Origin: Isoetes taiwanensis
Taxonomy: Eukaryota > Streptophyta > Lycopodiopsida > Isoetales > Isoetaceae
Direction of reading: 5' to 3'
Assembly (NCBI GenBank): GCA_021234155.1
Contig: JAJEKV010000040.1
Span: 12,109,072 to 12,173,071 of the forward strand
Length of the DNA: 64,000 nt
In this document: positions 1,312 through 54,690 of the stretch, in pieces
How positions within the stretch are numbered: position 1 is the stretch's first letter
Layout: each line of letters starts with the position of its first letter
The notes under the pieces: model-generated
Seen by the model: only the letters and a program-made list of their open reading frames with translations
Told to the model about the DNA's origin: nothing
The model's database searches: none
Translations under genes and position numbers: made by a program

Positions 1312-1384
1312 TAAAAGCTAATACTCTTCTTCCATAGCTCGCTGCCATGTTGGATCCTTTGCTGCAGCAGCAAAGCTAGTTGGA

Positions 1385-1891: not shown

Positions 1892-1920
1892 CTTGTAGGC
1901 CTTGTGATCAAGCGCATAGC

Positions 1921-3110: not shown

Positions 3111-3122
3111 CGATCTTGGGGA

Positions 3123-3575
3123 TCAGTAAGTAATCAGCATGACTTGAAACATATACTCAATGGGACAATTATCATCACTAGACCCATTTGTATCGGCCAA
3201 ATTTGACTGCTCAACTCCTTTTCCTTTATCAGCAGATTTCTTTGCATCCCCTTTGGCCTCTTTAGCTTTTCTTTTATTGCAGTCCCTAGCATAATGGCCA
3301 TGCTTGTGACAGTAAAAGCACTCCACATTAGGCTTGCACCTGCCTTTACCCTTATCAGAATCAGAATCACGTGGTTTCTTCTCTTTGAAATCGTGCTTTC
3401 TAGGAGTAGAAGCATGTCCAACGAATGCAGCTTCAGATCCTCCTCCATGCTCTCGCTTAAGAACAACTTCTTCTTGCAAGAGCCGTTGTTGTGCAACAGA
3501 GTAATCAAAATGCTCCATATATCTGATGTTGGTACTTACAGTTTTGTATGCTGCTGGTAGAGCTAACATGGAAAA
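3123..3575 (-). pseudogene. Copia gag C-terminal part with zinc knuckle
   Basis: The frame starts inside gag with LPAAYKTVSTNIRYMEHFDY, then a Lys/Asp/Ser-rich stretch, and a single CCHC zinc knuckle (CFYCHKHGHYARDC, 3279-3320). It is separated from the N-terminal part of gag (4166-4702) by about 0.6 kb of non-gag sequence. The knuckle is the RNA-binding part of the nucleocapsid region. Confidence 0.85.
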
Positions 3576-4242
3576 TTTTAAGGGACTTATAATTTTGTAT
3601 AAGTATAATGAATTGGCCATTCCTTGTAGAATATGCCCCCAAAAGTGTAGCCTGAACTGGCCATTTTCCTATTTTTTTCTAATGTGGATGCAACCCAATT
3701 GGCGATTTTTGAAGCCGCTACCCTATATAAATGTGTTTAAGTTACATGTTGTATGAATTTCATACCCCATGTATTTCAATAATGCACAGATTGCTGGTAG
3801 GGAGAATTGGAAATCGGATGCCAGAATCTTCGTAAAGAGGATTGAAAAGTACCTCGACATTCTATTTTCCAAAAGAGCAGAATTATTCTTAGTTGGTAGA
3901 TATATTTAAGAATAAAAATTTCTAATAATGTTGGCCCCCCTGAGTGACGATTTTATGAGGGGGCCTCTTAATGAATTAAGATTTGGCAAACTTAAGGCAT
4001 AAATGGCCATTCCATAAGCATATCTAGTTCTCACTTGGTACTGAATTGGCCCCAAAGTCGACACCACTCTAATTAGCAAATATCTAATTGGCCATTCTAA
4101 TGTCGTAATGCGCAATAAAGTGCCACGAAATGGCGAATCTGCAGGTAGTCCATAGGTAAGGCATCCTACTCAAGCCGGTCGTCGCATTTTGCCTGAACCT
4201 GTAATTTGTGGCCAAATGGCCCGCCGGGGCCACTAAAATTTT
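3571..4242. other. Roughly 0.66-kb insertion splitting Copia gag
   Basis: The two halves of gag are separated by AT-rich DNA with no coding match. Both edges carry a copy of AAAATTTT (3573-3580 and about 4234-4240), and AGCTAACA occurs just outside on each side, compatible with a target duplication. Four copies of TGGCCATT lie inside (about 3613, 3658, 4002, 4091). I see no convincing terminal inverted repeat and no transposase, so this may be a non-autonomous element or replaced sequence. The exact ends are uncertain. Confidence 0.5.
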
Positions 4243-4702
4243 CGCTGAGAGCTAACAAGATGTCTTGAACTAGCTCTTCCTCCTTGTATGTACCTCCGGC
4301 TGCAATATAAGCCAACCTCCATGCTTCCATCTGCTTCAAAAAGTCTGCCATAGACTTAAAATCTGCTAGCTTGGCCATTCGAATCTTTTCCTTGATCAAT
4401 CCTTGTTGAGGCATGCCTTTAGTAGAGAATTGTCTCTCAAGAAAGGCCCAAAGCTCCTTGAACTCTGTCAAACTTTCAATCTGAGGCTGAATGGTAGGAT
4501 CTACCAGCAGGTTGATAGTTGAAACTGCTAGAGAGTTCATTTCTGCTGCTTTGACATTCTTTGTGCTGATGAAGTCTGCCTGAAAGACATCACCTAGCTT
4601 GTTGAAGGTGAGATAGTGCTTCATAAACACCCTCCAAGAATGATAGTTTTCATTTGTTAGTTTGGCATCCCTTGAAAATTTGAAGGGATCCATCACCTTC
4701 AA
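4166..4702 (-). pseudogene. Copia gag N-terminal part
   Basis: Starts at an ATG with MKVMDPFKFSRDAKLTNENY followed by HSWRVFMKHYL, the usual opening of Copia gag (UBN2 family). The helical capsid part follows, with ELWAFLERQF and KEKIRMAKLADFKSMADFLKQ. The last 20 or so residues no longer match gag and read into inserted DNA. The remainder of gag resumes at about 3575. Confidence 0.85.
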
Positions 4703-6684: not shown

Positions 6685-7824
6685 ATGGTGAAGCACAAAA
6701 ACAGAAGATGGAGCTTTTGCTCCACCAGATATCCAAGCAACAGGGTTTCTCAAGATCATGATGATGTGTCCGGTATGAATGACTGTATTACCAAAGTATT
6801 GTTGCAAACAGCTCAGTTGTGTTTCAGCTCTAACAGGGCAGCAAAGGGGTTACCGTGTAATTCTTGGTTTGATATGGATTGCAAGCAAGCACGCCAAAAA
6901 TTTGTTGAGGCACCAGAACGTGATAAAAAACAAATGCTGCTGGAATATAGAAGGATGATCAGGAGAAAAAAGAGAGGTTATATGAAAGTTAGGCAGGAGA
7001 GACTTCTCATGGAATGGATAACGCGCCCAAAGAGCTTTTGGAATAAGATGAAAATGAAGAAAAAACAGGAATCTAGTTTGCCATGTGATGTGTTGATTAA
7101 TCATGTGTGCATGTTGTACCATAAACCAGGAATACATGAGCTTTCATCTTTGCAAAATGGTAATATGGGCAGCTTTTCTGTGGAGGACATATGTGATGGC
7201 ATTAGGCGCATATCTAATGGTAAGGCATCAGACAGTATGGGCTTAGTGGCTGAACTAGTAAAATGGGCCGGGGATCCAATTGTAGAGTATATTACTCACA
7301 TGTTCAATAAAGTGATACTGCAGGGATTTCCTACTAAATGGCAATGCAATAGGGTGGTGCCAGTACCTAAAGGTGGTAACAATTCGGATATGAATAACTA
7401 CCGAACAATTATGGTAAGTAATCTATGGGCAAAACTATTTGCTACTGTTGTTGAGGGGAAATTGAGTTCTTGGGCGGAGGAGAATAAAGTAAGAGCCAAG
7501 GGGCAAGCAGGTTTTAGGCCACGTCATTCTACCACGGACCAGCTGGTGACTCTACGTGCCATGGTAGAAAATGTGAAAGGAAAGAAGAAACCGCTATTCT
7601 TGGCATTTGTGGATTATACTAAGGCATTTGACACGGTGCCGCATGATAAACTATGGGCGAGAATGGATGCCTTAAATGTCCCAATGGAATTGAGGTCAGC
7701 AGTACGACGTTTGTATGATAAAGTCCTTGTAGAGCTATCCCGGCCATGGAATGATATCTGCAAAGACCAGGTACACAGTAACATTGGAGTAAAGCAGCCC
7801 CTACTCTATTCGGTCTCTTTATAG
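6685..7824 (+). pseudogene. LINE ORF2: RT fingers and palm, first part
   Basis: The ATG-initiated frame of 379 codons contains a Lys/Arg-rich linker and then RT blocks: ISNGKASDSMGLVAEL, VVPVPKGGN, NNYRTIMVSNLWAKLF, GQAGFRPRHSTTDQ and AFVDYTKAFDTVPHDKLW with the first catalytic Asp. A frameshift at about 7800-7840 separates it from the part with the catalytic Asp pair. It encodes the enzyme that copies LINE RNA at a nicked target. Confidence 0.88.
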
Positions 7825-7844
7825 ACAAATTAGAGGATTGGATT

Positions 7845-8375
7845 GTGTATAATGGTGGTCCAGGAGCTCCTTCGGCTGAACATGTGATCTCCCTCTTGTT
7901 ATATGCGGATGATGTGGTCTTAATAGCTAGGACTAAACAAGGGTTGGACACTCATCTTGAAACATTGGGTGCCTTCTGTGATAGAACTGGTTTGGAGGTG
8001 AACATATCTAAAACTAAGGTTATGGTGGTTGGCACCCGTGCAAAACATGTTTTCTATTATAAGGGACAACAACTGGAGACAGTAACTTCCTTCAAATATT
8101 TAGGGGTTATATTTGAAAGCAGCTATAGATGGAACATGTGCATTGAGCAAAGGTACAGCAATGGGCTTAAAGCCTTATGCGCGCTGCAAAAGCTATGTAA
8201 GAAGAATCACTTATGGGATTGGAACATGAAAAAGACACTTTTTAAGACATTGGTCCAAACTGTTGTACTCTATGGGTGTGAGGTGTGGGCTCCCAGTGTT
8301 ACAGCTAATCTGTGGCTCTCAGTTGAGAAGCTGCAAAAAGGATTCCTACATTCCGAACTAGGGGTCAAGTTATAA
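7845..8375 (+). pseudogene. LINE ORF2: RT catalytic motif and thumb
   Basis: Open frame holding the catalytic YADDVVLIA motif, the following KTKVMVVGT block and FKYLGVIF, then the VLYGCEVWAP and LEKLQ-like segment typical of LINE C-termini. It is out of frame with the upstream RT part. The frame stops at 8375, and sequence in another frame continues the protein to 8704. Confidence 0.88.
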
Positions 8376-18836: not shown

Positions 18837-18841
18837 CTTGG
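18837..18841. other. Target site duplication of the chromovirus, left
   Basis: CTTGG immediately before the left LTR; the same five bases follow the right LTR at 31973-31977. Five-base duplications are standard for Ty3/Gypsy integrases. Confidence 0.93.
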
Positions 18842-20440
18842 TGTGACGCTCCCAGAATATATACGACCCTCGGACGTATACATACGGGGACTTTCCCCTC
18901 CCATGGCGATCCTCTCACCATGAGCAGGGCCCTCCGTCTGTTTCGGGCCACCTATGAACTGAGGCCCGAAAGAAGGACACGAAGGGGTCATTCGGCCCAC
19001 GCCTTCAATGGGACTCCTACGTCGCGGAAGCATGAATACAAGGGTTAGCACACAGCACGAATATACATAAATAACCACCACGAAGGGTGGCGCATCCATC
19101 CAAAATACCAACGGCATAGAATATGCATCTAATCCTAAGAAAACGCCCAAAACCCAGGCTTCTACCCCGGCTCAGACTCCAGTGAGGATCGACTGACGGC
19201 TGGGCCTCAAGAGATCAGCAGACCGAGTCTTGGCATGGCGTTGGCTGGCATAGAACATCGGCTAGGGTTGTCCACTCCATCCGCCCCTCCTGTGCACACT
19301 TTGCAGATGGGTCAATTCATGCTATGGCTTTGCTATAGCCTTCCGGAGACGCAGGTTCGAGGAATCACCCTTTGAGCCTACTCCAGGTTCATGACGCCTG
19401 GTCCGATGAGGCAGGTCGGGGAAGCGTCCCCTTCCAGAATCACAGTGGTTCCATGGGCGAGCTAGAGAATACGTGCCGCATCAGCTGACCCGTGATCCGT
19501 GCGACTTACCGCCCCTAAATCTACTCAAAGTGCAAGGTGCTCCATACGGATCACACCTTCCCACCCAGGAGTGTCGGACCCATACCCGCCCCTACGTGGA
19601 TGGCCATCGGGCCTAGCCCATCAGAGGAGTCGGGAGCCATGTATGCTCATGCAAGACCCCACCCCTCATGTCACCTTGTGTTCCTTGTCCGGTGCTAAGC
19701 CGCACCATAGCATCTAGGACCCGGTGGGCTCTTGTGCACAGCCGCAATTAATGGGACTTTACAGGCTATCTAGGAGCATACTACTATACACGGTTCAGAG
19801 GCCTCTACCCCCGTAATCCCCCGTTTCAGAATCGATTTAATCACGTAACTAACAATCAATCCTTTGAGAGAAGAACCCGAATTGAATGTAAAGAGAACCC
19901 ACTTGTACAACCAAGGGTTAGTTCCTATGATTAATTACTGAGAGAACAGAGAAACGCAGACACAACCAAGCGTTATCTAGAACTCACACAACCACCTACC
20001 CGAATTCTGGCTTGACTCGTTTCCATGGGGCCTCCATCTCCGGGAGTTGTTAATCATTTGTTACTTCACAGGGGACGATCGCTATGGTGGTTCTGCAAGG
20101 GTGTGATGGCTCGCTCTCCCGGCCTTCTTTGGTCGATCTTCAGGAGTCAATCCCAGGGATAGGGGTCAAGCTGGCATCCAAACTTGGCAATCCCCATGCT
20201 CCCCCAATCGATTGGGGCAGGTGGCGCCTCCCCAAATGGTATTTCCTAGGTTATAGGTTATTATTATTAATGTGTTAAATTAGCATAGCTAATTTAATCC
20301 ATTGTAAGGTAACCCCCTAGGTTACAATTAAGTTCCCATACCCCCATGGTAGCGTACCTTTAGGGGGGTGACATGCTTGTATTTGTACGTGGCCCGTATA
20401 AATACGTGACGTAGACCGTACAAATACGTGGAACGTCACA
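18842..20440 (-). repeat. Chromovirus 3' LTR (1599 bp)
   Basis: Begins TGTGACG and ends CGTCACA, a 7-bp terminal inverted repeat. It matches the LTR at 30364-31972. The first 440 bp or so and the last 330 bp or so look identical to the other LTR, while small indels and substitutions cluster between about 19290 and 20110. A minus-strand frame inside both LTRs has no ATG and is not taken as a gene. Confidence 0.97.
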
Positions 20441-20453
20441 TTCTCCCCTCCTT
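20441..20453 (-). other. Polypurine tract of the chromovirus
   Basis: On the minus strand AAGGAGGGGAGAA directly precedes the 3' LTR. This purine run is the expected primer for plus-strand DNA synthesis in LTR elements. Confidence 0.92.
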
Positions 20454-21060: not shown

Positions 21061-23658
21061 CTAAACATGATTATCGGCAATCAAGTCTTCGAGCTTACCG
21101 CTGGGAGCGGGGTTGATAGCATCGTTGATGGTGCGGCCTTGAGATTCCCGCATGAAGTCCGGATAGTGCTTCTCAAGGTCTATCTTCATTACCCAGGTAG
21201 CATCTTCAACTGGTAAGTGTTTCCACTTGACTAAGTATTGCAACATTTGAGTCCTTCTGGTCTGTTTGTAAGCTCGATCAAGAAGAGCTTCGGGCACTAT
21301 TTCCAGCTGCTCTTCAGTCATCTCTAGGAGAGTTGGGGTATCCAAAACCTCCTCTGGATCTGGGGTGTGTTGCTTCAGAAGACTCACGTGAAAGACCTTG
21401 TGGATCTTCAAGCGGGGTGGCAAGTCCAAGCGATATGCTTGTTCCCCTACGCGTTCAGTAATCCTGAACGGCCCAGCCCATCTGGGTGCCAACTTCTTAC
21501 AGTTACCAATTTTAAGCTTGGCTTGTTTTACTTTGATCTTAAGCCAAACTGATTCGCCCACCTGGAAGATCCGTGGGGTTCGGTGCTTATCCGCTAGACT
21601 CTTTTGACGATTGCGTGCGGCCAATAAGTAACCCCGAACTTCTTCCACCAAGGCCTGCATTTCTAAAAGGAGCTGTTGAGAGACCTCCACTTTAGAAACA
21701 GGGTTATACCACGTGTCTGGAGTAAGACATTGATAGCCATAATTTATCATGAAGGGAGACATCTTTGAAGACTCCTGCTTTGTACTGTTATAGGCGAACT
21801 CTACCAGGTAAATATAATCCGCCCATTGTGACTGTTTACTCCATACATAACTTCGTAGCATATCTTCGATAATACGGTTGACACGTTCCGTTTGACCATC
21901 TGTCTGAGGATGGTAAGCTGTACTCATGGCAAGCTTGGTCTGGATGGTGGCGAAGAAATCCTTCCAGAATGCACTGACAAACTTAGGATCTCTATCTGAT
22001 ACAATTACTCTTGGCATCCCGTGCAACCTGAAAATTTCTTTTGCAAAGAGCAAGGCGGTGTCGAAGGCGGTGTCCGTGGTGCGACATGGCAGGAAGTGAG
22101 CCATCTTTGACAATTTGTCGACCACGACCATTAATGCATCATATCCACGGAGGGTGCGTGGAAGCCCCACAATGAAATCCATAGTTATGACTTCCCACTT
22201 GGCGTTGGGCACATCCAAAGGTTGCAACTCCCCAGGAACTCTTAATTGCTCCGCCTTGGTTTGCTGACAAACCTGACACTGTTTGATGTACCTAGCAATA
22301 TCCTTCTTCATCGAAAGCCAAAAATAGCTGGAGCGGATCTTAAAGTAAGTTTTCATAAAACCCGCATGTCCTGCTATAGGGCTGTTGTGGGTGTCATGGA
22401 GAATCAACTTTCGCACCCCTGAAGTTGCTGGAACGCACAACTTATCTTTGTAATATAATAAGTTGCCCTCCTTCTTATATGAACGGAATGCTTCTCGTTC
22501 TCTGTCGGTACGGGCTTCCTTACCCAAACTTTCCCAAATATTACAGAATTCGGGATCTGTGGCCAAGGTCTGCTCTATCTGCTTCCCAAACTCGCTGGTG
22601 AGTGTGGAAATGGCATTACAATGGGTGCGGGTTATAAAGGGATGACGTGACAAAGCATCCGCAACCACATTGTGCTTCCCTGGCTTGTATACAATCTCGA
22701 AGTCATACTCCTCGAGGAATTCCATCCATCTGCGCTGATGGAGATTTAGATTTGGCTGGGTGGATAAATAGCGGAGACTCTGATGATCCGTATCCAGCTG
22801 AAATCTTCTACCAAGAAGGTAGTGTCTCCAAATACGGAGAGCACGAACAACTGCCAGCAACTCCTGGTCATGGGTAGGATATCGTTGCTCTGCGTCATTC
22901 ATCTTCTTTGAATCGTAGGCAACCACTCTCCCCTCCTGCATTAGAACTCCACCGGTAGCTATCTTACTAGCATCGGTGGCTACCGATTTATCCTTTTCAG
23001 GATCAGGCAATGTAAGGACCGGTGCAGATGTTAAGGCATCCTTGAGCTTTTGGAAGCCGACTTGGACTTTTGTCTTCCAATGTTCCATCCAATCCTTTAC
23101 CTTCTCATGCTTTGTGAGATTAGTAAGAGGTGCGGCAATTGCTGCAAAATCCTTAACAAATTTTCGATAATATCCTGCGAGTCCCAAGAAACTTCGGACC
23201 TCTGAGACATTAGCTGGAATGGGCCAATCCTTTACTGCCTCTATCTTGGCTGGATCTGTAGCAATTCCTTCTGCTGAAATAATATGCCCCAAATAGTCGA
23301 CCCTCGTAGTGGCAAACTTGCATTTAGAAAACTTGGCAAAGAGCTGATGGCGTCTTAGCTTCTGCAAAGCCAATCGAAGATGTTGTTGATGTTGCTGCAA
23401 GGTTTTACTATAGATGAGAATGTCATCAAAAAAAATGACAACAAAGTCATCCAAGTATTGGCGGAAGATGTCATTCATCAACCGCATAAACGTTGCAGGG
23501 GCATTGGTCAATCCAAAAGGCATGACATTGAACTCATAATGGCGTGATCTCAGTGCGAAAAGCGACTTATGAATGTCCTCCTCCTTTATCCTTATCGATG
23601 GTACCCGGAGCGCTAAATCAATCTTTGAGAAATATTTTGCTCCTTGTAACCGGTCCAT
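21061..23658 (-). pseudogene. Chromovirus pol: RT, RNase H, integrase, chromodomain
   Basis: An open frame of 865 codons. Order by residue: RT with KIDL (12-15), [12 protein letters not shown] (46-57) and the catalytic FFDD (76-79); RNase H with [16 protein letters not shown] and TDHQSL; integrase zinc-binding region ending CQVCQQTK; integrase core with Asp in TMDFIVGLP, Asp in VSDRDPKF and Glu in [10 protein letters not shown]; and a C-terminal chromodomain (about 785-835; [15 protein letters not shown]). The chromodomain marks it as a chromovirus; in this group it is thought to steer integration to modified chromatin. Two RT blocks, just after KIDL and near HKSLF, read oddly and look like paired compensating indels. 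The RT N-terminus is in another frame (23613-23921), so the polyprotein is broken near 23655. Confidence 0.93.
21154..21306 (-). other. Chromodomain at the pol C-terminus
   Basis: Residues about 785-835 of the pol frame read ALLDRAYKQ ... [20 protein letters not shown] and end near HYPDF, the chromo shadow/chromo fold pattern of chromoviral integrases. Two of the usual three aromatic cage positions are visible as Tyr and Trp. Binding to methylated H3 is known for related domains, and is inferred here. Confidence 0.85.
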
Positions 23659-25116: not shown

Positions 25117-25887
25117 TTAGGCCAGGCACCGACATGCCCTTCTGTTCCAACCCCAGAGAAGGTCTCGAATCTGTTGGCATTTGTGCGCACGAGGCACATA
25201 ATGCGATTTAAAAGCCTTAGCAAACTTCCTGAACTTGCATCTGCTCCTATCCAGGTGTTTAGCTCTGGCGTAACCCTTCCACCAAATACGGGCAGCTCCG
25301 GTAAGGTTGGTGGTGGCGACTTTCCCTGTATCTTTCTCTGTCATTCCATAGGACTTCCCGAATTCCTTCATTTCATCCAACCAAGATTCCGCATTCAAGC
25401 CTCCTCTAGATTTTCCATCAAATTGAGCTAACTTCCGGTTCTTCCATATACTAGTGATGGCTGTATCAACGGTTTTTCGGTATTCCTTATCCTTACGCCT
25501 TGAGTGGTCACTGTCTGACAGCGAGGACCCCGAAGAACCCGAAGCGGTTGAATGTGAGGACGCGGCACTATCCTTAGAGGAACTTCGATGACGCTTGGCA
25601 TGAGTCCTCCTTTGTACCGGCACAGGGCTAGCTGTGGGAGGAGACGGCTGTTGTGCGGGTGGACTCAATGGTCGCGGAGGCAATTCCGGTCCGTCCTCCT
25701 GAGTATGTGGCAGTGGATTGGTATGCAAGACATAGGCCTGCAATTCGCCGAGTTGCCTTTTCATTATCATCAATTCCTGTTCAGGGGTGAGCCTGCTGGC
25801 GTTGGAGGGTGTTTGCCAAGCGGCGTTACGTACACCGTCTATAGGGAGTATCCATGAATGTATAAGCAGATTTACATTAATGTACAA
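25117..25887 (-). pseudogene. Chromovirus gag, capsid part
   Basis: The frame is open for 256 codons from a TTG; the first in-frame ATG is at 25770, so the true start is uncertain. After a Pro/Ser-rich segment (PELPPRPLSPPAQQP) and a basic Ser-rich tract it contains the retrotransposon gag capsid pattern: AQFDGKSRG, ESWLDEMKEF, TGAARIWWKGYARAK and FRKFAKAFKSHYVP. It breaks into another frame at about 25140, before the region where the zinc knuckle should be. Its product would normally form the particle around the element RNA. Confidence 0.85.
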
Positions 25888-26084: not shown

Positions 26085-26573
26085 CTAGGGGTTGGCGAAG
26101 GGGTACAGGATCGCGTAGCGGGTACTCTCCCGTACGGCTCGGACGAGTTTATAGCGTGCCCAGGCTTGGACAATGATTGCTTGGTACTCCCATGTTGGGC
26201 TGATAATTAGAAGGTTAAAGAGCCTTCGCATCGCATAAAAGAGTTGCCAAAGGTGATCGTTGGCGTCCTCAAAGGCTTCGTGCCTGGTCATATTCCAGTA
26301 GTCCCAGGTACGACACAAGGTCATCCTCAGATCCTCGAAAGCTCGATCTCTGAGGATGTTAACTATCTCCAGCCCTTTGTCAGGGTCATAGAGTTCCCCT
26401 GGTGGCGGTGGTTCAGTTTCATAGCCTTCCTCCCACTCTGGATATTCACCATATCTCTGGCCATAATCCTGGTCTGGCGGCCCGGGATCGTCCCTCCTAA
26501 CCATGTCGGTGATTCTTTCCTCATACTCCCAAATGGTTTCCTCTGCAACATAGTTGGAATGAATAGAGAACAT
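26085..26573 (-). CDS. Accessory ORF-C of the chromovirus, H2B-like histone-fold candidate
   Basis: Starts at ATG 26573 and encodes 162 aa; the frame is also open to a TTG at 26594. The N-terminal third is acidic and Tyr/Pro-rich (YGEYPEWEEGYETEPPPP). The C-terminal half resembles histone H2B by eye. ND (105-106) and RL (117-118) are spaced as in H2B helix 2, EYQ (129-131) sits where H2B has EIQ, and RAVRESTRYAILY (145-157) follows the H2B alpha-C pattern [HK]AVxEGTKxxxxY. About seven of the last thirty positions are identical without gaps. Helix 1 does not align. It lies between ORF-B and gag with about 200-bp spacers. Function unknown; a nucleosome-like role with ORF-A and ORF-B is inference. 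Confidence 0.6.
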   Translation of the reverse strand: MFSIHSNYVAEETIWEYEERITDMVRRDDPGPPDQDYGQRYGEYPEWEEGYETEPPPPGELYDPDKGLEIVNILRDRAFEDLRMTLCRTWDYWNMTRHEAFEDANDHLWQLFYAMRRLFNLLIISPTWEYQAIIVQAWARYKLVRAVRESTRYAILYPFANP

Positions 26574-26778
26574 TGGAGTTGCATTATATTCCAAAGTTTA
26601 ATGCTCTTGAAGAGGATGTCATAACAAAACACAATTCAATAATACTCCTCAAGAGAACTTTGTATTAAATAGGTAAATAAAGTACACCATTGTTCAATAT
26701 CATCCAACGGTTGCTAAACGAAAATCTCATAAACCCACGTATAATTATATATATACAAAAATTTCATAGCACAATTGT
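26574..26778 (-). other. Spacer between ORF-B and ORF-C
   Basis: AT-rich, about 200 bp, stops in all frames. Similar spacers of about 200 bp lie between ORF-A and ORF-B and between ORF-C and gag. They could hold promoters or translation re-entry signals, but no specific motif is seen. Confidence 0.5.
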
Positions 26779-28182
26779 CTAGGAACTAGGCCCTGCCTCT
26801 TTATCCTTAGCCTTAGGAGGTGGTGGAGGCGGTCGGTGTCGCAGCAGAGCTACTCCAGGGTCCACGGTGGCCGCCGCAACAGATGCAACCTCTGGTGGAT
26901 AAGCAACGGCCAATGGGGCTGCCGTGAGGAGCTTCATACCCATCCAGGGCGCAATATCCTGGCCCAAGGCCGTAAGGGCAAGATCCCGTCGTACGAGTAC
27001 ATACGTAAACGTACGATAGGAAAGCTTCTTGTGGCCGGCGAGTGTAGAAAGTGCACGGAGGGCCCACCATGAAGCTTCAGCCTCTGGCCCTAAGTCCCGG
27101 GCTATGAAGAGGACTTGGCCGTATTTGAAGGCCGACAAAAAGAAACGGGTAAGGTGGTTACCCAGCACCTTCCCTTGCGGAGTCTCGGATGCTGCCACCT
27201 CCTTATCCAAGTCCATGGGGACTTCTTCCTCCTTAAGCTCCTGTTGCTCCTCCTTCTTGTGTGCAGGGTTATGATACAAATCTTCGCCCTCATCATCTGA
27301 GTCGGAGGGAATCTCAACCATATTAATGTTTGGGACGTGAGGTCCCATAGCCGTGAAGGCATCTGGTGCAGGTTGCGAAGCTGGTTCCTGCATCACAAAG
27401 TCACGAAGACGTAATAGAGTCTCCGCCGGCTCTAGGGTCTCCTGACGGAACTGCAGCAGCTGGTGCACCTCTGGAGGAAGCTCAGTAGAAGTGAAGTCGA
27501 TGAAATCATCCATACAATACTCCGCAAGCTCATAAAGTACATGGTCTTTGCGCTTGCGTCTAAATCCGGCCACTACATGATACGTCCAGATAATATCATC
27601 CAAGAGAAGGTATTCCTGCCCCTGGTGATAAATAACTGGAAGGCCGTCTAACCCTGACAAGCCTATAGATTGGTCACGGCGCGGTGGTAGCTCCTCTGCT
27701 AGCTCTTTCCAACGGCCGAAGTCACCCATCCCTATATGCTCATCATCCCCCTCCTCGGAGGATTCCGGCAGTTTGCTCTTCTCCACTGGCAAGGTCTCAT
27801 CCTCAACGTATTGGTCCATGAGGATAGCCAGGGCGAAAGTAGCTTCCAAATACTGCTGCCCCTGATGTTGGACTACCGGTAGGTGCTTACCCCATCGGAG
27901 TTTCCCCTTCAAGACGTCATAGGCATGTGTGTCCCCGCCTAGCATCTGCCGAACTATCTCCCGCTCCAAATACAAGTGGGGAGGATCCCCTAGAGGAATA
28001 CACAGAGGAAGCATTTCCTCCATGTAAAAGTCAAGGAATCCGGCATAGTCCGGATGCCGCTGCATATTGGCAAGGAGATCTATGCGTTGGCATAGCAAAG
28101 GCTGCAGCAGGTCGAAGGGAACCTGTGGATCCCATTTCTCTCCATCAAGGTACCAGGCAGCAAGGTCGATGGCGGCAGCCAT
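26779..28182 (-). CDS. Accessory ORF-B of the chromovirus, 467 aa, H2A-like C-terminal region
   Basis: Starts at ATG 28182 and is uninterrupted for 467 codons. Residues 1-100 are helical and acidic. Two internal repeats follow, LPVVQHQGQQYL (101-112) and LPVIYHQGQEYL (181-192). An acidic stretch (about 290-328, with IPSDSDDEGED) contains a hydrophobic-acidic pattern like a SUMO-interacting motif or a histone-binding acidic patch. Residues about 338-420 resemble H2A: LTRFF..KY for IARFL..KY, LAG at 381-383, then KK and VRRDLALTALG where H2A has VRNDEELSKLLG. Helix 2 would be shorter than in H2A by about six residues, a weakness. The C-terminus is Pro/Lys-rich. No known family name is offered; presence in an element with an H3 raises the odds of the histone reading. 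Confidence 0.7.
   Translation of the reverse strand: MAAAIDLAAWYLDGEKWDPQVPFDLLQPLLCQRIDLLANMQRHPDYAGFLDFYMEEMLPLCIPLGDPPHLYLEREIVRQMLGGDTHAYDVLKGKLRWGKHLPVVQHQGQQYLEATFALAILMDQYVEDETLPVEKSKLPESSEEGDDEHIGMGDFGRWKELAEELPPRRDQSIGLSGLDGLPVIYHQGQEYLLLDDIIWTYHVVAGFRRKRKDHVLYELAEYCMDDFIDFTSTELPPEVHQLLQFRQETLEPAETLLRLRDFVMQEPASQPAPDAFTAMGPHVPNINMVEIPSDSDDEGEDLYHNPAHKKEEQQELKEEEVPMDLDKEVAASETPQGKVLGNHLTRFFLSAFKYGQVLFIARDLGPEAEASWWALRALSTLAGHKKLSYRTFTYVLVRRDLALTALGQDIAPWMGMKLLTAAPLAVAYPPEVASVAAATVDPGVALLRHRPPPPPPKAKDKEAGPSS
26923..27171 (-). other. Candidate histone-fold region of ORF-B
   Basis: Residues about 338-420 of ORF-B. Anchors shared with H2A: RF (346-347), KY (353-354), LAG (381-383), KK (385-386) and VR-D with Leu and Gly spacing (397 on). 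An alternative match to the H4 C-terminus (KxxxxxxxxYxLxR) is weaker but cannot be excluded. Confidence 0.4.
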
Positions 28183-28383
28183 GGCGCTAGAAGGGAGGAG
28201 ATGAGGAAAAGAAGCGTTTAAAATGACCCTACAGTCCCCTTTTAAACCCTCTTAATAAAGCTGACGTCAGCATTTTATTTTAAATTCAACATGGAAAAAC
28301 ATTAAACTTTTAATTCAAAATAAAAGTTTCTTTATTAATTATCACAAAAAAAATATGTACAAATGCGGATCCCCGCAAGTAGG
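28183..28383 (-). other. Spacer between ORF-A and ORF-B
   Basis: About 200 bp, AT-rich near the ORF-A stop, with no open frame. ORF-B begins at ATG 28182 with no overlap, so the two proteins cannot be made by frameshifting from one another. Confidence 0.5.
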
Positions 28384-29613
28384 CTAAGGTTGCTCCCCCC
28401 GTATCCTACGGGCGAGGGCCAAATCCTTAGGCATTATGGTGATCCTCTTTGCGTGGATAGCGCAAAGGTTGGCGTCACCAAAAAGTGCTACCAAGTAGGC
28501 TTCAGCAGCCTCTTGGAGCGCCAAAATTGCAAAGGTCTGGAAACGGAGATCGGTCTTAAATTGCTGCGCGATCTCACGTACCAGCCTCTGAAAAGGCAGC
28601 TTCCTGATCAGAAGGTCCGTGGACTTCTGAAATTTGCGGATCTCCCGCAATGCCACGGTACCGGGTCGGAACCGATGAGGCTTCCGCTGCGGCCGAGGCC
28701 CCGACGATGTTGGCACCGTCTTAGCCCCAGTAACCGGCCGGGAGTTATCCACTCTCTGCTGCCTCCGGTCGGAGCTGGTCTTCTTCCCGAAAGCCCCGAC
28801 AGTCTTTAATTTCTCCTTGTATTGACTGCCGGCCTTATGGGCGACTCCCTTCCTTCTGTGCTTCACGGTCTGGTGCGTCGGTTTTGGGTCCAGCCCGCTC
28901 CCCGATGCACCTCCCTCTTGCTGGTCCCGCTGGTCCTGTCGGTCCCGCTCATCTTGCTCCAACTTCTCCCGTTCCTCCCGGGCTCTCCTCAAATCTTCTT
29001 GGATCTGAGCAAAAATTTGGGCTGCGGCACGGCGATTAAGCTCAGCGTGGTACCGTTGTGGCCGCAGACCCATATCTATCTGAATAGTTGTCAGATAGTC
29101 TATGCTGATGTCGGGGATTTCTCCCCAGACAAAAGTATCGGAACCCTCATGCCAGCGGTATGGGGGAACCTCGATGGCCCTGCCATCAATGACGGCAAAG
29201 CCGTCCCCGAGGTACCGGTACTCCCTACCCCGAGCTGCTGTGTCAGACCGCTCAATCTCCCGGTGGTCGTCCTCCCTGGCCAAACCCCTGATACGGTCGG
29301 CCTCTGCCCTGACATCTTCCTCCTCCGTATGGCCTTCCTGCTGAGGAGGATAAAACTTGATGAGCATCATTACCATGTCTGGTTGCTCCACAATGGTATA
29401 TGGGAGCTGGCGTAGGTTCAGCCGGATAAGAAACGGCTCTGAGAAATGATAGATAGGATAAGGAATCCTATCATTGTTCTCAAACCTGTTAACCAGCTCA
29501 TCCAACAAGATGTCGACGAGGGCTGGGTCAGTGGCCATGTGCTTGGCAATCATGGCGTAGATCTCCACGATGCTCAAGGTGGACGGATCCGGAGCGCTCT
29601 TGGTGATTGCCAT
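28384..29613 (-). CDS. Accessory ORF-A of the chromovirus: N-terminal domain fused to histone H3
   Basis: From the first ATG in frame (29613) it encodes 409 aa; the frame is open upstream to a TTG at 29757. Residues 1-100 are helical ([20 protein letters not shown]). About 115-205 contain charged and aromatic segments, and about 210-250 form an Arg/Glu/Gln-rich probable coiled coil. About 250-310 is a basic, Lys/Arg-rich tail. The last 99 residues (311-409) are a histone H3 core: [65 protein letters not shown] and LARRIRG. Compared from memory with plant H3 I count about 15 changes. The canonical H3 tail, including both ARKS contexts around K9 and K27, is absent. Loop 1 has canonical length, so it is not a CENH3. 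It is the first ORF after the primer site. Function is inferred to involve chromatin or genome packaging. Confidence 0.93.
28387..28683 (-). other. Histone H3 core domain of ORF-A
   Basis: Begins at the KPHR motif that precedes the H3 alpha-N helix and runs to the ORF-A stop. All H3 secondary elements are present without gaps. Cys in NLCAIHAKR and the His three residues later, used in H3-H3 contacts, are kept, as is the Asp of MPKD. Notable changes include Q for D in the IAQDF position, TFAIL for the SSAVA segment, and GD for ED in LFED. Confidence 0.95.
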
Positions 29614-30350
29614 AGGGAATAGTGAGGCGCTGGCGGCGACGAAGGTGGCAAAAGGGGCGCTAAGAGGCACAAGGCACACAGGCGCGGGAGCAGGGTCTAG
29701 TCCGGCGACGATGGCGGAGGGCGGCTCAGGTGGTTGGAGGCGCGGAAGCAAAAACAAATGACAAAATTTAATTGGTTAAAAGGCCCCTTAACTTTTAAAA
29801 ATTTCAAATTTTTTTCCTTTTATTAACGTCGAAATATTATTATTATAAATTATACGGCGGAAATACGCGCCCCATACGGTCGGGCGCCGATGGCGTTATA
29901 CGAGTTTCTGCCTCGACTGGGCGTCGCCGAAAAGCAAGCGGCGCCCGAGTTGACTCGGCGGGCCCGCGTTGACTCGGGTCTGACAGGTCGGGCGCCGAGG
30001 GCATTTCGGGCGCGTCTACTTTGACTGCAAAGCTTCCAAATGCAAGCGGCGCCCGAGTTCGTTTTTGGGCCTGCCCTTGACCATGTTTCGCCTAGAGTCG
30101 ACTGTTCTAGGGTAATTCGGGTACGCCCGATCCAATGGAACCATCATCTTCGTCATTTGAGCTACCCACTGGCACCTATTAGGCCTCCAATCTTGGGCCC
30201 TCCACTTTAAAGCTATAATCTCTTAACTTAACCTAACACCAAACCAAACAACAAAGAGAACTAACGACACATTGACTTAGCCTCCTCCTAACTACCGTGC
30301 TACGAGTTAGTGTTTGGCCAGTGCTATGATTTCGAGCAACCGAAATCACG
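29614..30350 (-). other. Chromovirus leader with alternating inverted 10-mers
   Basis: Between the primer site and ORF-A the GC content rises and a 10-mer occurs four times in alternating orientation: TCGGGCGCCG at 29880-29889 and 29988-29997, and its reverse complement CGGCGCCCGA at 29939-29948 and 30047-30056. This would allow strong alternative hairpins in the genomic RNA. A 22-codon upstream ORF lies at 30016-30084 (minus). Packaging or translation control is a reasonable guess, not shown. Confidence 0.7.
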
Positions 30351-30362
30351 GCTCTGATACCA
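30351..30362 (-). other. Chromovirus primer binding site (tRNA-iMet)
   Basis: Minus strand TGGTATCAGAGC, complementary to initiator methionine tRNA, one base away from the 5' LTR. This is the usual primer of plant chromoviruses. Confidence 0.95.
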
Positions 30363-30363
30363 C

Positions 30364-31972
30364 TGTGACGCTCCCAGAATATATACGACCCTCGGACGTA
30401 TACATACGGGGACTTTCCCCTCCCATGGCGATCCTCTCACCATGAGCAGGGCCCTCCGTCTGTTTCGGGCCACCTATGAACTGAGGCCCGAAAGAAGGAC
30501 ACGAAGGGGTCATTCGGCCCACGCCTTCAATGGGACTCCTACGTCGCGGAAGCATGAATACAAGGGTTAGCACACAGCACGAATATACATAAATAACCAC
30601 CACGAAGGGTGGCGCATCCATCCAAAATACCAACGGCATAGAATATGCATCTAATCCTAAGAAAACGCCCAAAACCCAGGCTTCTACCCCGGCTCAGACT
30701 CCAGTGAGGATCGACTGACGGCTGGGCCTCAAGAGATCAGCAGACCGAGTCTTGGCATGGCGTTGGCTGGCATAGAACATCGGCTAGGGTTGTCCACTCC
30801 ATCCGCCCCTCCCATTGCACACTTTGTGGATGGGTCAATTCATGCTATGGCTTTGCTATAGCCTGAGACGCAGTTCGAGGAATCACCCTTTGAGCCTACT
30901 CCGGGTTCATGACGCCTGGTCCGATGAGGCAGCGGAGGGGAAGCGCCCCTTCGGAATCACGGTGGTTCCATGGGCGAAGCTAGAGAATACGTGCGCATCA
31001 GCCGACCCGTATCCGTGCAGGCTTACCGCCCTAAATCTACTCAAAGTGCAAGGTGCTCCATCTGGGGGATCACACCTTCCCACCCGGGGAGTGTCGGACC
31101 CATACCCGCCCCCTCGTGGTAGGCTATCAGGCCTAGCCCACTGTAGGAGTCTCAGGAGCCATGTATGCTCATGCAAGACCCCACCCCTCATGTCACCACT
31201 GTGTTCCTTGTCTGGTGCTAAGCCAGACCATAGCATCTAGGACCCGGTGGGCTCTTGTGCACAGGCCGCAATTAATGGGACTTTACAGGGCGCTATCTAG
31301 GAGCATACTACTATACACGGTTCAGAGGCCTCTACCCCGTAATCCCCCCGTTTCAGAATCAGATTTAATCACAGAACTAACAATCAATCCTTTCAGAGAA
31401 GAACCCGAATTGAATGTAAAGAGAACCCACTTGTACAACCAAGGGTTAGTTCCTATGATTAATTACAGAGAGAACAGAGAAACAGACACAACCAAGCGTT
31501 ATCTAGAACTCACACAACCACCTACCTGAATTCTGGCTTGACTCGTTTCCATGGGGCGCCTCCATCTCCTGGGAGTTGCGAATTCAGCTGTTACTTCACA
31601 GGGACGACTGCTATGGTGGTTCTCTGCAAGGGTGTGATGGCGCTCAGCTCCTGGCCTTCTTTGGTCGATCTTCAGGAGTCAATCCCAGGGATAGGGGTCA
31701 AGCTGGCATCCAAACTTGGCAATCCCCATGCTCCCCCAATCGATTGGGGCAGGTGGCGCCTCCCCAAATGGTATTTCCTAGGTTATAGGTTATTATTATT
31801 AATGTGTTAAATTAGCATAGCTAATTTAATCCATTGTAAGGTAACCCCCTAGGTTACAATTAAGTTCCCATACCCCCATGGTAGCGTACCTTTAGGGGGG
31901 TGACATGCTTGTATTTGTACGTGGCCCGTATAAATACGTGACGTAGACCGTACAAATACGTGGAACGTCACA
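30364..31972 (-). repeat. Chromovirus 5' LTR (1609 bp)
   Basis: TGTGACG to CGTCACA, matching the LTR at 18842-20440. It is the promoter LTR in element orientation. Differences to the partner are mostly short indels in the middle 800 bp. I could not pick a TATA box or poly(A) signal with confidence. Confidence 0.97.
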
Positions 31973-31977
31973 CTTGG
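31973..31977. other. Target site duplication of the chromovirus, right
   Basis: CTTGG, identical to 18837-18841. Confidence 0.93.
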
Positions 31978-45760: not shown

Positions 45761-47671
45761 ATGTTGAAACTACGGGCCTCTGAGAACACCAAATTGTGGC
45801 AAGTTTACAGGTTCAAAACTCTTCTTCCAAGCGCTCATGGCATCTTTGCCTCGTATCTTTGCAAGACATTATTTTCCAGTAATAGGTATACGGAAATTCT
45901 CACTGATATCAGCGCTGTTTTCTAGCAACCACATAACTTTAGGGTTTTAATCAACAGGAATTTTGAAGATCCAAACAAACAAAGCTGGTTAGAAGAGGCT
46001 CTCAGATGTGCTGAAGCAAAGCATCAGAAACAAGGAATTTCATTATCTAAAGCACTTGCACATCGTATGGTTTCAGAGTGTTCTAAACGCCGAGACTTGA
46101 AGCTTGGAAGACGAATCCATTCATTGATGGCTATTAATAAACTAGATTGTGTTGCATTTTTGGCAAATCACCTTATTCGTTTATTTGCCTCATGTGGAAG
46201 CTTGGCTGAAGCAGAGCAGGTATTTATCAAGGTTACAAATCCAGATCAATATACTTGGAATGCAATTATTGATGCCTATGTTAAGCACGGTGAAGCAGAA
46301 TTGGCATTAAAATTGTATGATAAAATGCTAAGAAAGGGTGGAAAGCCAGACAAATTTACATTTCCTAGCATTTTGAAAGCGTGTGGTAGCATAGGTGCAA
46401 TAGAGAGAGGCATGGAAATTCATGGCCAGGTTGTTAAGTTAAGTCTTCAATTTGATCCTTTTGTTGGAAGCAGTTTAGTGGACATGTATGCGAAATGTGG
46501 GAATTTGGAAGCTGCTCGTGCTATCTTTGACAAACTCTCCACTCGAGATGTCGTAACATGGGGTTCAATGATTTCAGGTTATGCACAGAATGATAAAGGG
46601 CACCTTGCTTTACAATGTTATGAGCAAATGCAGCAGGCAGGCATAAAGCCAGACAAGTTTACATTCCCAAGCTTGTTGAGAGCATGTGGCAGCTTGGGAG
46701 CTATAGAGCAGGGTACCTTTATTCATGAACAAATTGTAAAAGAGGGCCTCCGGTCTGATGTCGTTGTTGAAGTTGCCATTGTTGATATGTATGCCAAATG
46801 TGGCAACTTGGACAAGGCACGCAATGTGTTCGAGAACTTAAAGCATCGGGACGTAGTCGCATGGGGAGCGATGATTGGAGGATATACCGATAATGGTCAA
46901 GGCCAACTTGCACTAGAATTTTATGAGAGCATGCAGCAAGAAGGCATAAAACCTGATATGATAATATTTTCAAGTGCTTTGAAAGCATGTAGCAGTATAG
47001 GAGCCATAGAGCAGGGCAAGCGCATTCACCAGCAGCTTGTTGAGAGTGGGGTGCAGTCGGATATTGTGCTTGGGAGTATCCTTGTTGATATGTATGCAAA
47101 ATGTGGGAATTTGGAAGAGGCACGAAAGATGTTTTTAAAATTGGCAAAGCATGATCTAGCAGCCTGGGGCGCAATTATTAACGGATATGCACAGGCTGGT
47201 GAGGTGGGTTTGGCTTTTCAATGTTTTGAAGACATGCAAGATCGTGATATCAAAGTAAATGATATAGCATTTACGAGTATTCTTTCGGCATGCACTCATA
47301 CTGGCTTAGTGGATGAGGCTCTTAGGTGTTTTTATACGATGAAGCAGGTTCATGGGTTACATCATGATATACATCATGTTACGTGTATGGTGGATCTCCT
47401 AGGACAGGCTGGACAGCTTCAGGAGGCTGAACATTTGCTTAAAGCTGTGAATGTCCCTGGTATTCGTCCATGGATTGCTCTCCTTAATGCCTGCAGAACA
47501 CATTGCAATGTAGAGCTAGGAAGACGCAGCTTTAATGTAATTGTTCAATTAGAACCTGTCTATGTTCAAGCATATGTGCTCATGTCAAATATTTATGCTA
47601 ATGCCCACATGAATGATGATGCTCATAGAGTGGACCTGATGAGAAAACTTGCTTGTGCACGTCAAGACTAA
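45761..47671 (+). CDS. PLS-class pentatricopeptide repeat protein, truncated before E2/DYW
   Basis: Model: 45761-45885 joined to 45958-47671 (612 aa). A 72-bp intron (GTATAC ... CAACAG) removes an in-frame TAG at 45923. The N-terminus (MLKLRASENTKLWQVYRFKT ... FSSN) is basic, Ser-rich and lacks acidic clusters, as in mitochondrial or plastid targeting peptides. Around a dozen PPR motifs follow, with repeated blocks such as LVDMYAKCGNLEAARAIF, RDVVTWGSMISGYAQND and GIKPDKFTFPSLLRACGSLG. It ends in an E1-like segment (ACRTHCNVELGRRSFNVIVQ ... LMRKLACARQD) and stops where E2 and DYW normally begin. PLS proteins bind organelle RNA and direct C-to-U editing; without DYW it would need a partner deaminase, or it is a truncated copy. 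Confidence 0.9.
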
Positions 47672-51094: not shown

Positions 51095-51764
51095 TCTCAT
51101 GGAATGTTCAGGGGGTAGCCTCCTCCCCCCTCAAGCGGAGTCGTATTTCTTTTTACTTATCTAGATTGGATGCTCAGTTTGTATGTCTTCAAGAGCATAA
51201 GTGTCGTAAGGGAGACGTATCAAAGCTTGCAGACATGATTGGTCGCAGGTTTAATGTCCTTATCGCGAAGAACGATTACGCGCCGGTCAGGGTCGTGATA
51301 GCATGGCTTCCTTCCTTGCCGGTCATCTTTACCAGCCGATCGCTTTGGTCGTTGGGCCCCTAATTGTATGGCAGGAACAAGGGGTTAAATATGGTCTAAT
51401 TAATGTTTACGCCCACAATAGACCTCATCGAGAGAGCTTCACTGTGGGCCTCTTTATGAGGGAAGATACTCGGCTTGAACGCCACATTTCATGGCTTCTT
51501 GTTGGGGATCTCAATATGGTGGAAGTGGAGTCTGATCGGTTGGGGGCGACCTCTATAGTGGTGTCTGGTTTTGAATGCCAGCAGTGGCTTCGTCTACTCC
51601 ATGACTGCAACCTCTCGGAGATTGATGGTGAAGGTGCCTTCACTTGGTGCAATGGTCAAGTTGGTGGGGGTCGCGCAAGCTCTAGGTTGGATAGAGCTTA
51701 TTGGAATCGCGGGAATCTGATTCGCGGCACTTCCAGGTCTCTTTCGATTCTATCTCAGAGATAA
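51085..51764 (+). pseudogene. LINE-3 apurinic endonuclease domain
   Basis: The ATG frame reads MRLVSWNVQGVASSPLKRSR, then VCLQEHKC with the catalytic Glu. After a frameshift (about 51300) it reads VKYGLINVYAHN, LLVGDLNMVEVESDRLG with the GD-N motif and SSRLDRAYW. These are the EN signatures of L1 ORF2, which nicks target DNA. Confidence 0.9.
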
Positions 51765-52429
51765 CTCAGTTTCAGACCACCATCCGCAATTCATTTCAGA
51801 CGAGCCCCGCGCAACGAACAGCGGCGGCCGGAAGGGCGTGTTTCGCTTTGAACGTGAAGTTCTTAAAGGATGCTGACTTTCAACAAGGTTGCAAGAATAC
51901 TTGGACAACTGCCTTCAACCGACGTCGAGGTATGACCGGGCATAGTGGATGCAATTGCGGCGATCAAGGGTTTTGGCAAAGAGTGGGGTCGAGAGTCCGC
52001 AGCGGCCAGTCGTGCTTTCTTGGACACTTTGTATCGGGACTGCTCCATTCTCGGCGGGGGCGTCTTCAGTGTTCATGATCGTGATATTTTGGCACGAGAT
52101 CCAAGCATTGGAGGAGGAGCAAATTCAGCAAGCAAAGATGAAGGCGGTCTGCGATGGTTTTCGTGATGGAGATCGTTATGCGGGCTTCTTTTTTAGATGC
52201 GGCTAAGAGGCGTCGCATGACATCAACCATGTCCTCATTGCTTTTGCCGAATGGTTCGATGCTAACAGAGCCGCCCGAACTTCGGCAAAGACATCGCATA
52301 ACCACTTCGGCGTTTTTCTTTGAGAAACATCTTCCCTTTCAATCGAAATGCAAGATGTTGTTTTATCTAGGATTTCCCCATCATCTCGGTGAGCAAATGC
52401 GAGTCCATAGAGGCGACTATGACGGTGAT

Positions 52430-53824
52430 GATTTAGGTTCGGCGGTCTTTGAACCGAAAAGAGGCAAATGTCCGGGTTTGGATGGTTTGCCAATTGAGTT
52501 CTTCGAGTATTGGGAATGGTGAAGCGGATGTGTATGATGCTTTATGTGACTTTTCTAAACACGGTGCCATCTCACTCATCCCCAAGGTCAAGGATCCTCG
52601 GACTATTTTCGACATTGGCGACCCATCACCTTATTGTCATCCCGTATATAAGATCTTCGCCAAGGCTTTTGCAGGCGGGTAAAAGGACATCTTGGCGAGT
52701 CCATCTCAACAACCCGGTCGAGGTTTTCTTCCAAAGCGGTGCATTTTGAATAATGTTCTTCTGCGCTACGAGGAATTTATTGGGCACGTAGGCAAAACCT
52801 TCCAGTTGTATATCTTAAGCTTGATTTTGCAAAAGCTTATGGCGGTGTCATTTGGGAATTCATCTTGCCGTTGTATGCTAAAGGTGGGATTTGGGGAACA
52901 ATTCACATCGGATATTATGGTGCATATCTCTGCTTTCGGGCGACCGTCTGTTCCATGGTGAGCCGTCACATGCCTTTTCACTTTCGGCCATTGGTATTCG
53001 CCGGGGATGCCCTTTAGCACCATTGCGTTTCATAATCGTTCTGAGAGGCTTTGTCGCGGTTATTCACCATTGCAACGACGGAGGGACTTCTCCATGGACT
53101 TGCAATGGAGGGCGACACACAAGAGGTTTGCAATCAATATGCGGGCGACACGTTCCTCTTCCTAGTCGCTAATGATGAGAATCTTCTTCTTTGCCAAAAT
53201 GCTTTTAGATACTTTTTCACCGGCTTCGGTGTTCTTGTGGGGTGGCGTATGTATGCGGCTTTGTGGACATTGGATAATCCGGCTCCGGCATGTGTTCACA
53301 ATTATCCATGGAAATTACTTGCGCATGGACAGGCCATCAAGTTGTTGGGGATTCCAGTTGGCATCCATGTTACTATGGGAGCTGCATGGGAGGAGATCAT
53401 TAGGGGTTTGGAGAAGCACTTGTTCTGGTGGTCCACTGCTAACTTGTCTCTTGCGGGTCGCATTACAGTGGCCAAGTCAGTCCTTAGTAGTACCCATGTT
53501 TATATGGCATCCTTACTGCTAGCACCACAAATCAAAGTGCGTGAGCTCATTGCAATAGTTCGGAACTTTATTTGGGCAGGTACTGAGGAAGGTGTTGTGC
53601 TTAGGGTGGCTTGGTCGAAGTGCATCCTTCCAAAATGGGCAGGTGGTCTGGGTATGATGGACTTCTTACTACAGAGCAAAGTGCTTATTTCAAAGTTCAT
53701 TTGGAGACTCCTGAATGGTGAGGATGACTCTCCTGGTTCACGCCTTCTTAGACAAGCTCTTGGTCACTGTATCCCTCTAGGCAAGAAGGCTGTCAAACCA
53801 GTCCTACCTTGGGCTTTATTTTAG
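52430..53824 (+). pseudogene. LINE-3 reverse transcriptase and following region
   Basis: RT blocks in several frames: KCPGLDGLPIEFFEYW, HGAISLIPKVKDP, GIRRGCPLAPL, and the catalytic position that reads YAGDTFLFL (53138-53164) instead of Tyr-Ala-Asp-Asp. The later frame (53051-53824) continues with IKLLGIPVGIH, NLSLAGRITVAKSVLSS and FIWAGTE, the usual post-RT L1 blocks. The enzyme would be inactive. Confidence 0.88.
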
Positions 53825-54075
53825 ACTCTGCAGCCTTTTCCAAGTGCTTCTCCATTTTTGCGTGGCTTGTTGGCAGCATGGGAGGCAGTCAGACATCTTT
53901 TCTGGCCATGCCCCTCTATCCACACCCTCTTGGAGACTCCATGGTGGTGGGCACCACTGCCTCCAGACCCCTCAGCACCTCCACTGGCAGCCTCAGTTCA
54001 TCCCCTTACACAGAGACGATGGGTTCTTGCAGGTGTTGTCTCTATTCAAGCATGGTATGAGGAGGGTAAGCCCTC

Positions 54076-54690
54076 TTGTCTTGGCCTGAATTTCAGGCAA
54101 AGTTCCTGCTCTCTCGTTGGGATGTATCTCTATGGGAGAAGGTCGCAGAAAATTTGCCTCTTATGGTGCAAGTCGGTGTTGCTGAAAGGGTGCCATGGGA
54201 CTGCCATGAAAATATTCACAAAGGCAAGCAATTTGTCAGATCAGTATATCGCCTTCTTTTAGCACCACAACCCCTCCAATTGCCAGATGGGTGGCACCTA
54301 CATGTTCCACAGCCCACTTTGTGTCGTACATGGCGATGGCTTTGGGATAGGTTGCTCCACCCTAAAGTCTCTGTACTGTGGTGGCAGGTTATCCACAGGT
54401 GCCTGCGGGTTAAAGCCGTTCGACATCGCTATGATCCTCGCATATCTGCAGTATGCCCGCTCTGTCTTTCGGACGTTGAGACTCTTGAGCATTGTCCCTT
54501 TGATTGTCCTGAGGTTCAACCAGCGTGGTCCTGGCTACAAGGTTTGTTTAACAGTACACTGGACTGCCGATGCATCCTTTTGGCGTCCTATCCCAACGCA
54601 TGGCCTCCAGCTAAACAGAGGGCATTTCATCTTGGTTCCGGTTGGCTCCTATGGTCAATATGGGAACGTCGCAGACACCACATCTTTTAG
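54076..54690 (+). pseudogene. LINE-3 zf-RVT domain
   Basis: The frame has WRWLWDRLLHPKVSVLWWQV, then the Cys/His cluster CPLCLSDVETLEHCPFDCP and WSWLQGLF. This matches the zinc-binding reverse-transcriptase domain at the end of plant L1 ORF2 and related gene fragments. Confidence 0.88.

Follow-up and report, generated by a model that had tools for sequence, protein, structure and literature searches.

The genome of Isoetes taiwanensis contains a family of Ty3/gypsy chromoviruses in which an open reading frame ahead of gag, here called ORF-A, encodes a protein that ends in a histone H3 core. We hold with high confidence that ORF-A is an old H3 fusion, borne by the elements and kept by selection. 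It was recognized in a single element copy within a 64,000-nucleotide stretch of genomic DNA (the window), and occupies at least 341 distinct loci in the genome, the window's own included.

An H3 fusion within a chromovirus

The window copy is made up of the following features.

31973..31977, minus strand: target site duplication CCAAG, 5' side
30364..31972, minus strand: 5' LTR, 1609 bp, TGTGACG...CGTCACA; 94.9% identity with the 3' LTR (alignment of 1623 columns, 44 mismatches, 38 gap positions)
30351..30362, minus strand: primer binding site TGGTATCAGAGC, directly inside the 5' LTR
28384..29613, minus strand: ORF-A, 409 aa, with an N-terminal domain, a basic linker and a histone H3 core
28924..29592, minus strand: N-terminal domain spanning aa 8-230; predicted to be structured, with block means of pLDDT at 77-94 over aa 11-230
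28684..28893, minus strand: basic linker, the 70 aa that lead into the core, with a net charge of +14 in this copy
28387..28683, minus strand: histone H3 core, H3 residues 37-135, 99 aa (Pfam, PDB search, alignment)
26779..28182, minus strand: ORF-B, 467 aa, orphan, with an acidic stretch
26085..26594, minus strand: ORF-C, 169 aa, orphan; present in 15 of 20 loci, where it lies between ORF-B and gag
25117..25887, minus strand: gag fragment, Retrotrans_gag 4.4e-5, 24.1 bits (cut-off 24.1), profile positions 1-53 of 97
21061..23658, minus strand: pol, with RT (partial), RNase H, integrase and chromodomain (Pfam)
21151..21297, minus strand: chromodomain at the integrase C-terminus, PF00385 8.4e-8
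20441..20453, minus strand: polypurine tract AAGGAGGGGAGAA, preceding the 3' LTR
18842..20440, minus strand: 3' LTR, from the paired LTR alignment
18837..18841, minus strand: target site duplication CCAAG, 3' side

Read along the minus strand, the order is LTR, primer site, ORF-A with its H3 part, ORF-B, ORF-C, gag, pol with chromodomain, and LTR. The hallmarks of a chromovirus (Ty3/gypsy) are present: an LTR pair with TG..CA ends, a target duplication, a polypurine tract, and a primer site, TGGTATCAGAGC, which we take to be of the initiator-Met type. Pol matches the Pfam profiles RVT_1, RT_RNaseH, Integrase_H2C2, rve (31.8 bits, below its cut-off of 32.6) and Chromo. RT and RNase H precede integrase and the chromodomain forms the integrase C-terminus, and in this, as in its LTRs, primer site and gag, the element is like other chromoviruses (Ty3/gypsy). 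It is unlike them in its three extra ORFs ahead of gag, one of which is the H3 fusion, and is 13.1 kb in length.

The preliminary description placed ORF-A between the primer site and gag of a complete chromovirus. The placement holds, with ORF-B and ORF-C in the same interval, and the parts of a chromovirus are all there, but the window copy looks to be without an intact gag-pol frame, gag and pol both appearing broken in the sequence (the gag frame stops at 25117, and the pol ORF begins within the RT domain at 23658). ORF-A, ORF-B and ORF-C are all open. Several gag matches elsewhere in the genome lie in open frames of more than 1300 aa, up to 1665 aa, and long coding copies of the H3-bearing family seem to exist.

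The ORF-A frame is open from 28384 to 29757, and the ATG at 29613 gives the 409-aa product at the coordinates first described, with the minus strand as the one that is read. Histone was the only Pfam profile to score above its cut-off (1.6e-40), and the best match in a PDB sequence search was an H3.3 chain (E 7e-52), with H3.1 and H3.2 chains also found. These searches and a gapless alignment to host H3 confirm the 99-residue H3 core that had been proposed at the end of the protein.

ORF-B and ORF-C recur in the element family. The predicted model of ORF-B is poor (mean pLDDT 39.7), and no relatedness was detectable between ORF-B and the N-terminus of ORF-A. Just upstream of ORF-B on the minus strand lies a palindrome, GCTGACGTCAGC (28260-28271), then a TATA-like TTTAAAAGGGG (28236-28246) that is followed by a CT-rich stretch ahead of the ORF-B ATG; going by these motifs, ORF-B may have a promoter of its own. 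We also considered a swap of 5' ORFs between elements, with synonymous divergence lower in pol (0.51-0.70) than in ORF-A/ORF-B (0.70-0.90), and make no such claim because pol is itself old.

The leader between the primer site and ORF-A holds two GC-rich copies, 29878-29951 and 29986-30059, 72% alike and 108 bp apart. Four further retroelement-like ORFs were seen by eye in the window, at 562-4702 (minus), 6685-8375 (plus), 51303-54690 (plus) and 59440-61147 (minus); by the same inspection one is copia-like, two are LINE-like and one is perhaps Penelope-like. An intronless 534-aa protein of pentatricopeptide repeat (PPR) type, likewise judged by eye, is encoded at 46067-47671 (plus).

Recurrence across the genome

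The I. taiwanensis assembly (1,658,258,908 bases in 1110 contigs) was searched in three ways, and the 341 loci, a lower bound, comprise 135 matches to the Histone profile, 150 matches to the H3 part of the window copy (5 in common with the former), and 61 N-terminal matches that lie away from both. The Histone-profile figure derives from the best 150 of 8705 candidates, of which the first 15 were set aside as canonical H3: 8 of these were cut out as loci, all with a canonical core and 7 reading MARTKQTAR, and the other 7 were set aside by score alone. The matches to the H3 part are the best 150 of 9267 candidates.

The ten best matches to the N-terminal domain, which begin with the window copy and share 93-100% identity with the query, are close relatives of that copy rather than a broad sample, though they were not selected on H3, and all ten have H3 behind the domain. 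ORF-A is intact in 7 of them, and in 3 the H3 is in pieces or shortened. Among the matches listed, an N-terminal match lies directly upstream in 74 of the 150 H3 matches, and an H3 match lies 193-246 bp upstream (median 207) in 46 of the 91 ORF-B matches. Counting either an H3 or an N-terminal match at the expected place raises the latter to 59 of the 91 ORF-B matches listed, against 0 when the positions are shifted by 50 kb as a control. ORF-A stands upstream of 72 of the 148 gag matches among those listed, or 85 when ORF-B is counted as well (shifted controls 0, for H3 and N-terminal matches); for the remaining 76 there is no ORF-A among the matches listed.

In a set of 20 loci of ten kb each, chosen for their H3 score, 19 contain the N-terminal domain, 18 ORF-B, 15 ORF-C and 17 gag, and 18 have a correctly oriented 5' LTR; some element ends fall beyond the 10 kb. 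The N-terminal part is interrupted by stop codons or frameshifts in many of these 20 copies. Two loci (L019 and L020) have gag directly after ORF-A, without ORF-B and ORF-C. A third, L011:1375-8761, reads LTR, ORF-A, ORF-B, LTR, with neither gag nor pol between the LTRs, and by this layout is perhaps a non-autonomous derivative that retains the H3 ORF.

A conserved H3 core under purifying selection

The H3 core is 99 residues long in 25 of 25 copies, and the linker ahead of it carries a net charge of +12 to +18 in all 25. In 39 of 41 copies the 99-aa core aligns without gaps to host H3, the two others (L014 and L020) having been left out as they did not fit the motif used. Thirteen positions are unchanged in all 39: R69, R72, R83, C110, H113, K115, R116, T118, M120, K122, D123, L126 and R129. 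R63 is kept in 38 of the 39 and R49 in 37. We take R72, R83, R116, T118 and R63 to be DNA contacts of H3, while C110, H113, D123, L126 and R129 are presumably residues of the H3-H3' interface. The changes common to element H3s cluster at H3 86-89 and 101-107, stretches that presumably include chaperone-contact positions. Over the H3 part the predicted ORF-A model is of low confidence (pLDDT block means 36-51), perhaps because the alignment was shallow and the model held no H4.

Constraint following capture had been suggested earlier, and dN/dS across copies agrees with it. By the Nei-Gojobori method, the 496 pairs of the main subfamily have a median dN/dS of 0.037 in the H3 core, with a maximum of 0.22 and saturation in 31 pairs. 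Two other subfamilies have 0.022 over 6 pairs and 0.055 for a single pair. These within-subfamily medians of 0.02-0.06 are biased low because the copies were ranked by histone score (40 of the 41 in the alignment and in the dN/dS analysis were chosen among the top Histone-profile scores). Host H3 genes among themselves give 0.010. Synonymous sites are saturated in most pairs between subfamilies, the exception being 2 pairs between the window type and L047, and mean pN of the core between subfamilies is 0.065-0.136, a figure subject to the same bias.

A second sample, small but less affected by this bias, consists of 8 intact copies (28 pairs) from one subfamily: the window copy, N-terminal-domain matches, and L046, which is also on the Histone-profile list. 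Here pN/pS is 0.082 for the H3 core versus 0.211 for the first 200 codons; the H3 value is 0.935 for L049-L058 when L058, with an indel in H3, is included. Measured against the window copy, pN is 0.43-0.49 in the N-terminal part and 0.11-0.18 in the H3 part. The H3 core is under strong purifying selection. The contrasts in pN and pN/pS indicate a well-conserved H3 part and an N-terminal part that evolves quickly but remains under constraint.

The N-terminal domain and the unrecognisable tail

The N-terminal domain, described as novel from the outset, has kept that standing in the searches made: no relative was detected with Pfam, and Foldseek, with the whole ORF-A model rather than the domain alone as query, returned nothing at E <= 0.001 from the PDB and viral models. 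Outside the window copy's subfamily the domain is 29-35% identical to the window copy. R3H domains are marked by an R-x3-H motif, and an R3H-like fold was considered for ORF-A residues 27-99; its Z score is weak, far below 8, and none of 25 members has a Pfam R3H match.

The H3 tail is ordinarily short and N-terminal, with K4, K9 and K27. In ORF-A the standard tail is unrecognisable, and ARKS occurs in 1 of 25 copies. Anchored and local alignments against shuffles revealed no significant tail similarity in 9 copies: in a first test 296, 625, 295, 886, 338, 247, 267, 345 and 669 of 1000 shuffles were as good, and in a second test of the nine 178 to 1598 of 2000. The original observation that the protein has none of the normal H3 tail fits these results, with H3 residues 37-40 belonging with the core; no plain H3 tail is left to be read.

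We also considered a remnant of the tail flanking an insertion, in the form of 'AR-HP-xTGGKS' ahead of the core and of 'MARTK', with which L047 begins; it had no significance against shuffles and is a hint at most. When the positions of a copy are ranked by how well they match the start of H3, the N-terminal peptide comes first among 304 in L047, third among 300 in L046 and sixth among 298 in the window copy. In the MEE-type subfamily, with about 340 positions, it takes ranks 6, 9, 10 and 121, and in the main subfamily ranks 11-28 among 289-348, with L037 at 46 of 314.

Origin of the element H3

In a tree built from few columns, with many open forks and a midpoint root, the 39 element cores group together in a single clade (100/98), separate from the fetched host H3s and from other H3s. 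All 39 have A107 and either S or G105. In 241 other H3 cores, which came from 120 listed proteins with several cores each and were picked for likeness to the query, position 107 is T in 240 and P in 1, and position 105 is E in 240 and D in 1. Because the element cores form a single clade and share residues found in 0 of the 241 others, one old capture of H3 is likely. E77 is present in the fetched host H3 genes and in 34 of the 39 elements and in 0 of the 241 other cores, which hints at capture from the Isoetes plant lineage; in the tree, the elements and the host genes do not form a group that leaves out other plant H3s. Together, the single clade, the low dN/dS and the N-terminal domain without relatives support the view of the preliminary description, in which a cellular H3 was captured and then came under constraint.

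A proposed role in element chromatin

We hypothesize that an Isoetes Ty3/gypsy chromovirus captured a host H3, fused through a basic linker to a structured N-terminal domain, and that this fusion became a lasting, selected component of the element family. Beyond the selected H3 core, the steps are ones that we infer from sequence. The ORF-A protein would enter the nucleus, pair with host H4, and take its place in nucleosomes on element DNA, whether reverse-transcribed or newly inserted. Host H3 would be replaced there by a version with an element domain in place of the tail, so that K9 and K27 silencing marks could not be written at the usual place, and the N-terminal domain would be displayed on element chromatin.

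Since both the DNA-contact and the H3-H3' residues are kept, use in nucleosomes with host H4 is the simplest reading, and conservation of these residues is what points to pairing with H4. A kept H3 core together with an unrecognisable K9/K27 tail would suggest altered, silencing-resistant chromatin. Put as a whole, a captured and selected H3 fusion acting in nucleosomes on element DNA is our best explanation, and we give it an even chance of being right; for the nucleosome and anti-silencing mechanism taken by itself our expectation falls somewhat short of that. More tentative still is a fuller version, in which the exchanged tail of the fusion, assembled with host H4 on element DNA, would prevent silencing of the K9/K27 type, the fast-evolving N-terminal domain would recruit or block factors, and ORF-B and ORF-C would be possible partners.

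The preliminary description had named packaging of element DNA, marking of the integrated copy and steering of integration as roles that a captured H3 might play. A conserved H3 core is also what one would expect if the H3 mainly bound chaperones. The fusion could act as a decoy, sequestering host H3 chaperones or H3-modifying enzymes and so weakening silencing without being stably incorporated. The element-specific changes at H3 86-89 and 101-107, near presumed chaperone sites, are in keeping with such a role, as is the fast-changing N-terminal domain, which by analogy resembles host-virus conflict. However, a decoy does not need the DNA contacts R72, R83, R116 and T118, kept in all 39 cores, or R63, kept in 38, and we consider this account unlikely. 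An account we regard as improbable has the H3 core and linker condense element nucleic acid in the particle or pre-integration complex and never enter host chromatin. Plain nucleic-acid binding would not call for C110, H113, D123, L126 and R129, unchanged in all 39 cores, and the resemblance of the N-terminal part to R3H is not significant.

It is quite improbable that ORF-A and the chromodomain integrase together choose the landing sites of new copies, as no sequence link was seen between the two. The idea that one element copy received a host H3 gene by insertion or through a misjoin has a negligible chance of being correct: the window in itself offers nothing beyond a single copy, but ORF-A recurs across the family at the 341 or more loci, the spacing from H3 to ORF-B is narrow, the 5-bp duplication bounds the whole element, and the element H3 clade is apart from the fetched host H3s, while this recurrence and the Pfam and PDB scores exclude chance. 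Because selection has preserved the H3 part of the fusion, the finding suggests that the elements build or alter chromatin for themselves.

Relation to known systems and significance

CENH3 has a longer loop 1. ORF-A is like CENH3 and other H3 variants in joining an H3 core to a divergent N-terminus; unlike CENH3, its core is of canonical length with no loop insertion, and unlike CENH3 and the other variants, its N-terminal part is a predicted structured domain, more than a tail.

Host-type domains have been captured by plant elements before. Ty3/gypsy elements of Phalaenopsis carry a captured 2-ODD (m6A demethylase) ORF, as described in the main text of a study that looked for non-canonical domains in the LTR elements of 121 angiosperm genomes and found 15 (PMC9289625). 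As in those elements, an extra ORF with a host-type domain has been retained in Isoetes over many rounds of copying, the domain here being H3, and no histone is among the domains named in the main-text section on that screen (PMC9289625). The word 'histone' is absent from the text of a paper that deals with extra ORFs in the LTR elements of plants (PMC7264820) and from the main texts of the genome papers on I. taiwanensis (PMC8566536) and I. sinensis.

Selfish or viral DNA that bears core histones is also known from viruses: a review describes bracovirus H4, the histones of Marseillevirus and medusavirus, and, in two phycodnavirus MAGs, H3-like proteins with N-terminal extensions of about 170 residues without known relatives (PMC9145170). 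By its abstract that review concerns DNA viruses, and its main text contains neither 'retrotransposon' nor 'retrovirus' (PMC9145170), whereas the Isoetes case is a retrotransposon. A literature search of titles and abstract openings, with most subscription journals and bioRxiv preprints outside its scope, returned no retroelement with a histone ORF.

We know of no earlier retroelement-encoded nucleosomal histone, and ORF-A, if this reading is true, would be the first. Retroelements have long been in conflict with silencing by histone marks, and chromoviruses read such marks; for an element to carry a histone of its own would be a direct move in that conflict. The questions that follow are whether a transposon H3 sits in nucleosomes, and whether loss of the standard tail protects the copy that encodes it. 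Hundreds of element-borne H3 copies that evolve outside the host gene would also make a natural experiment in H3 design.
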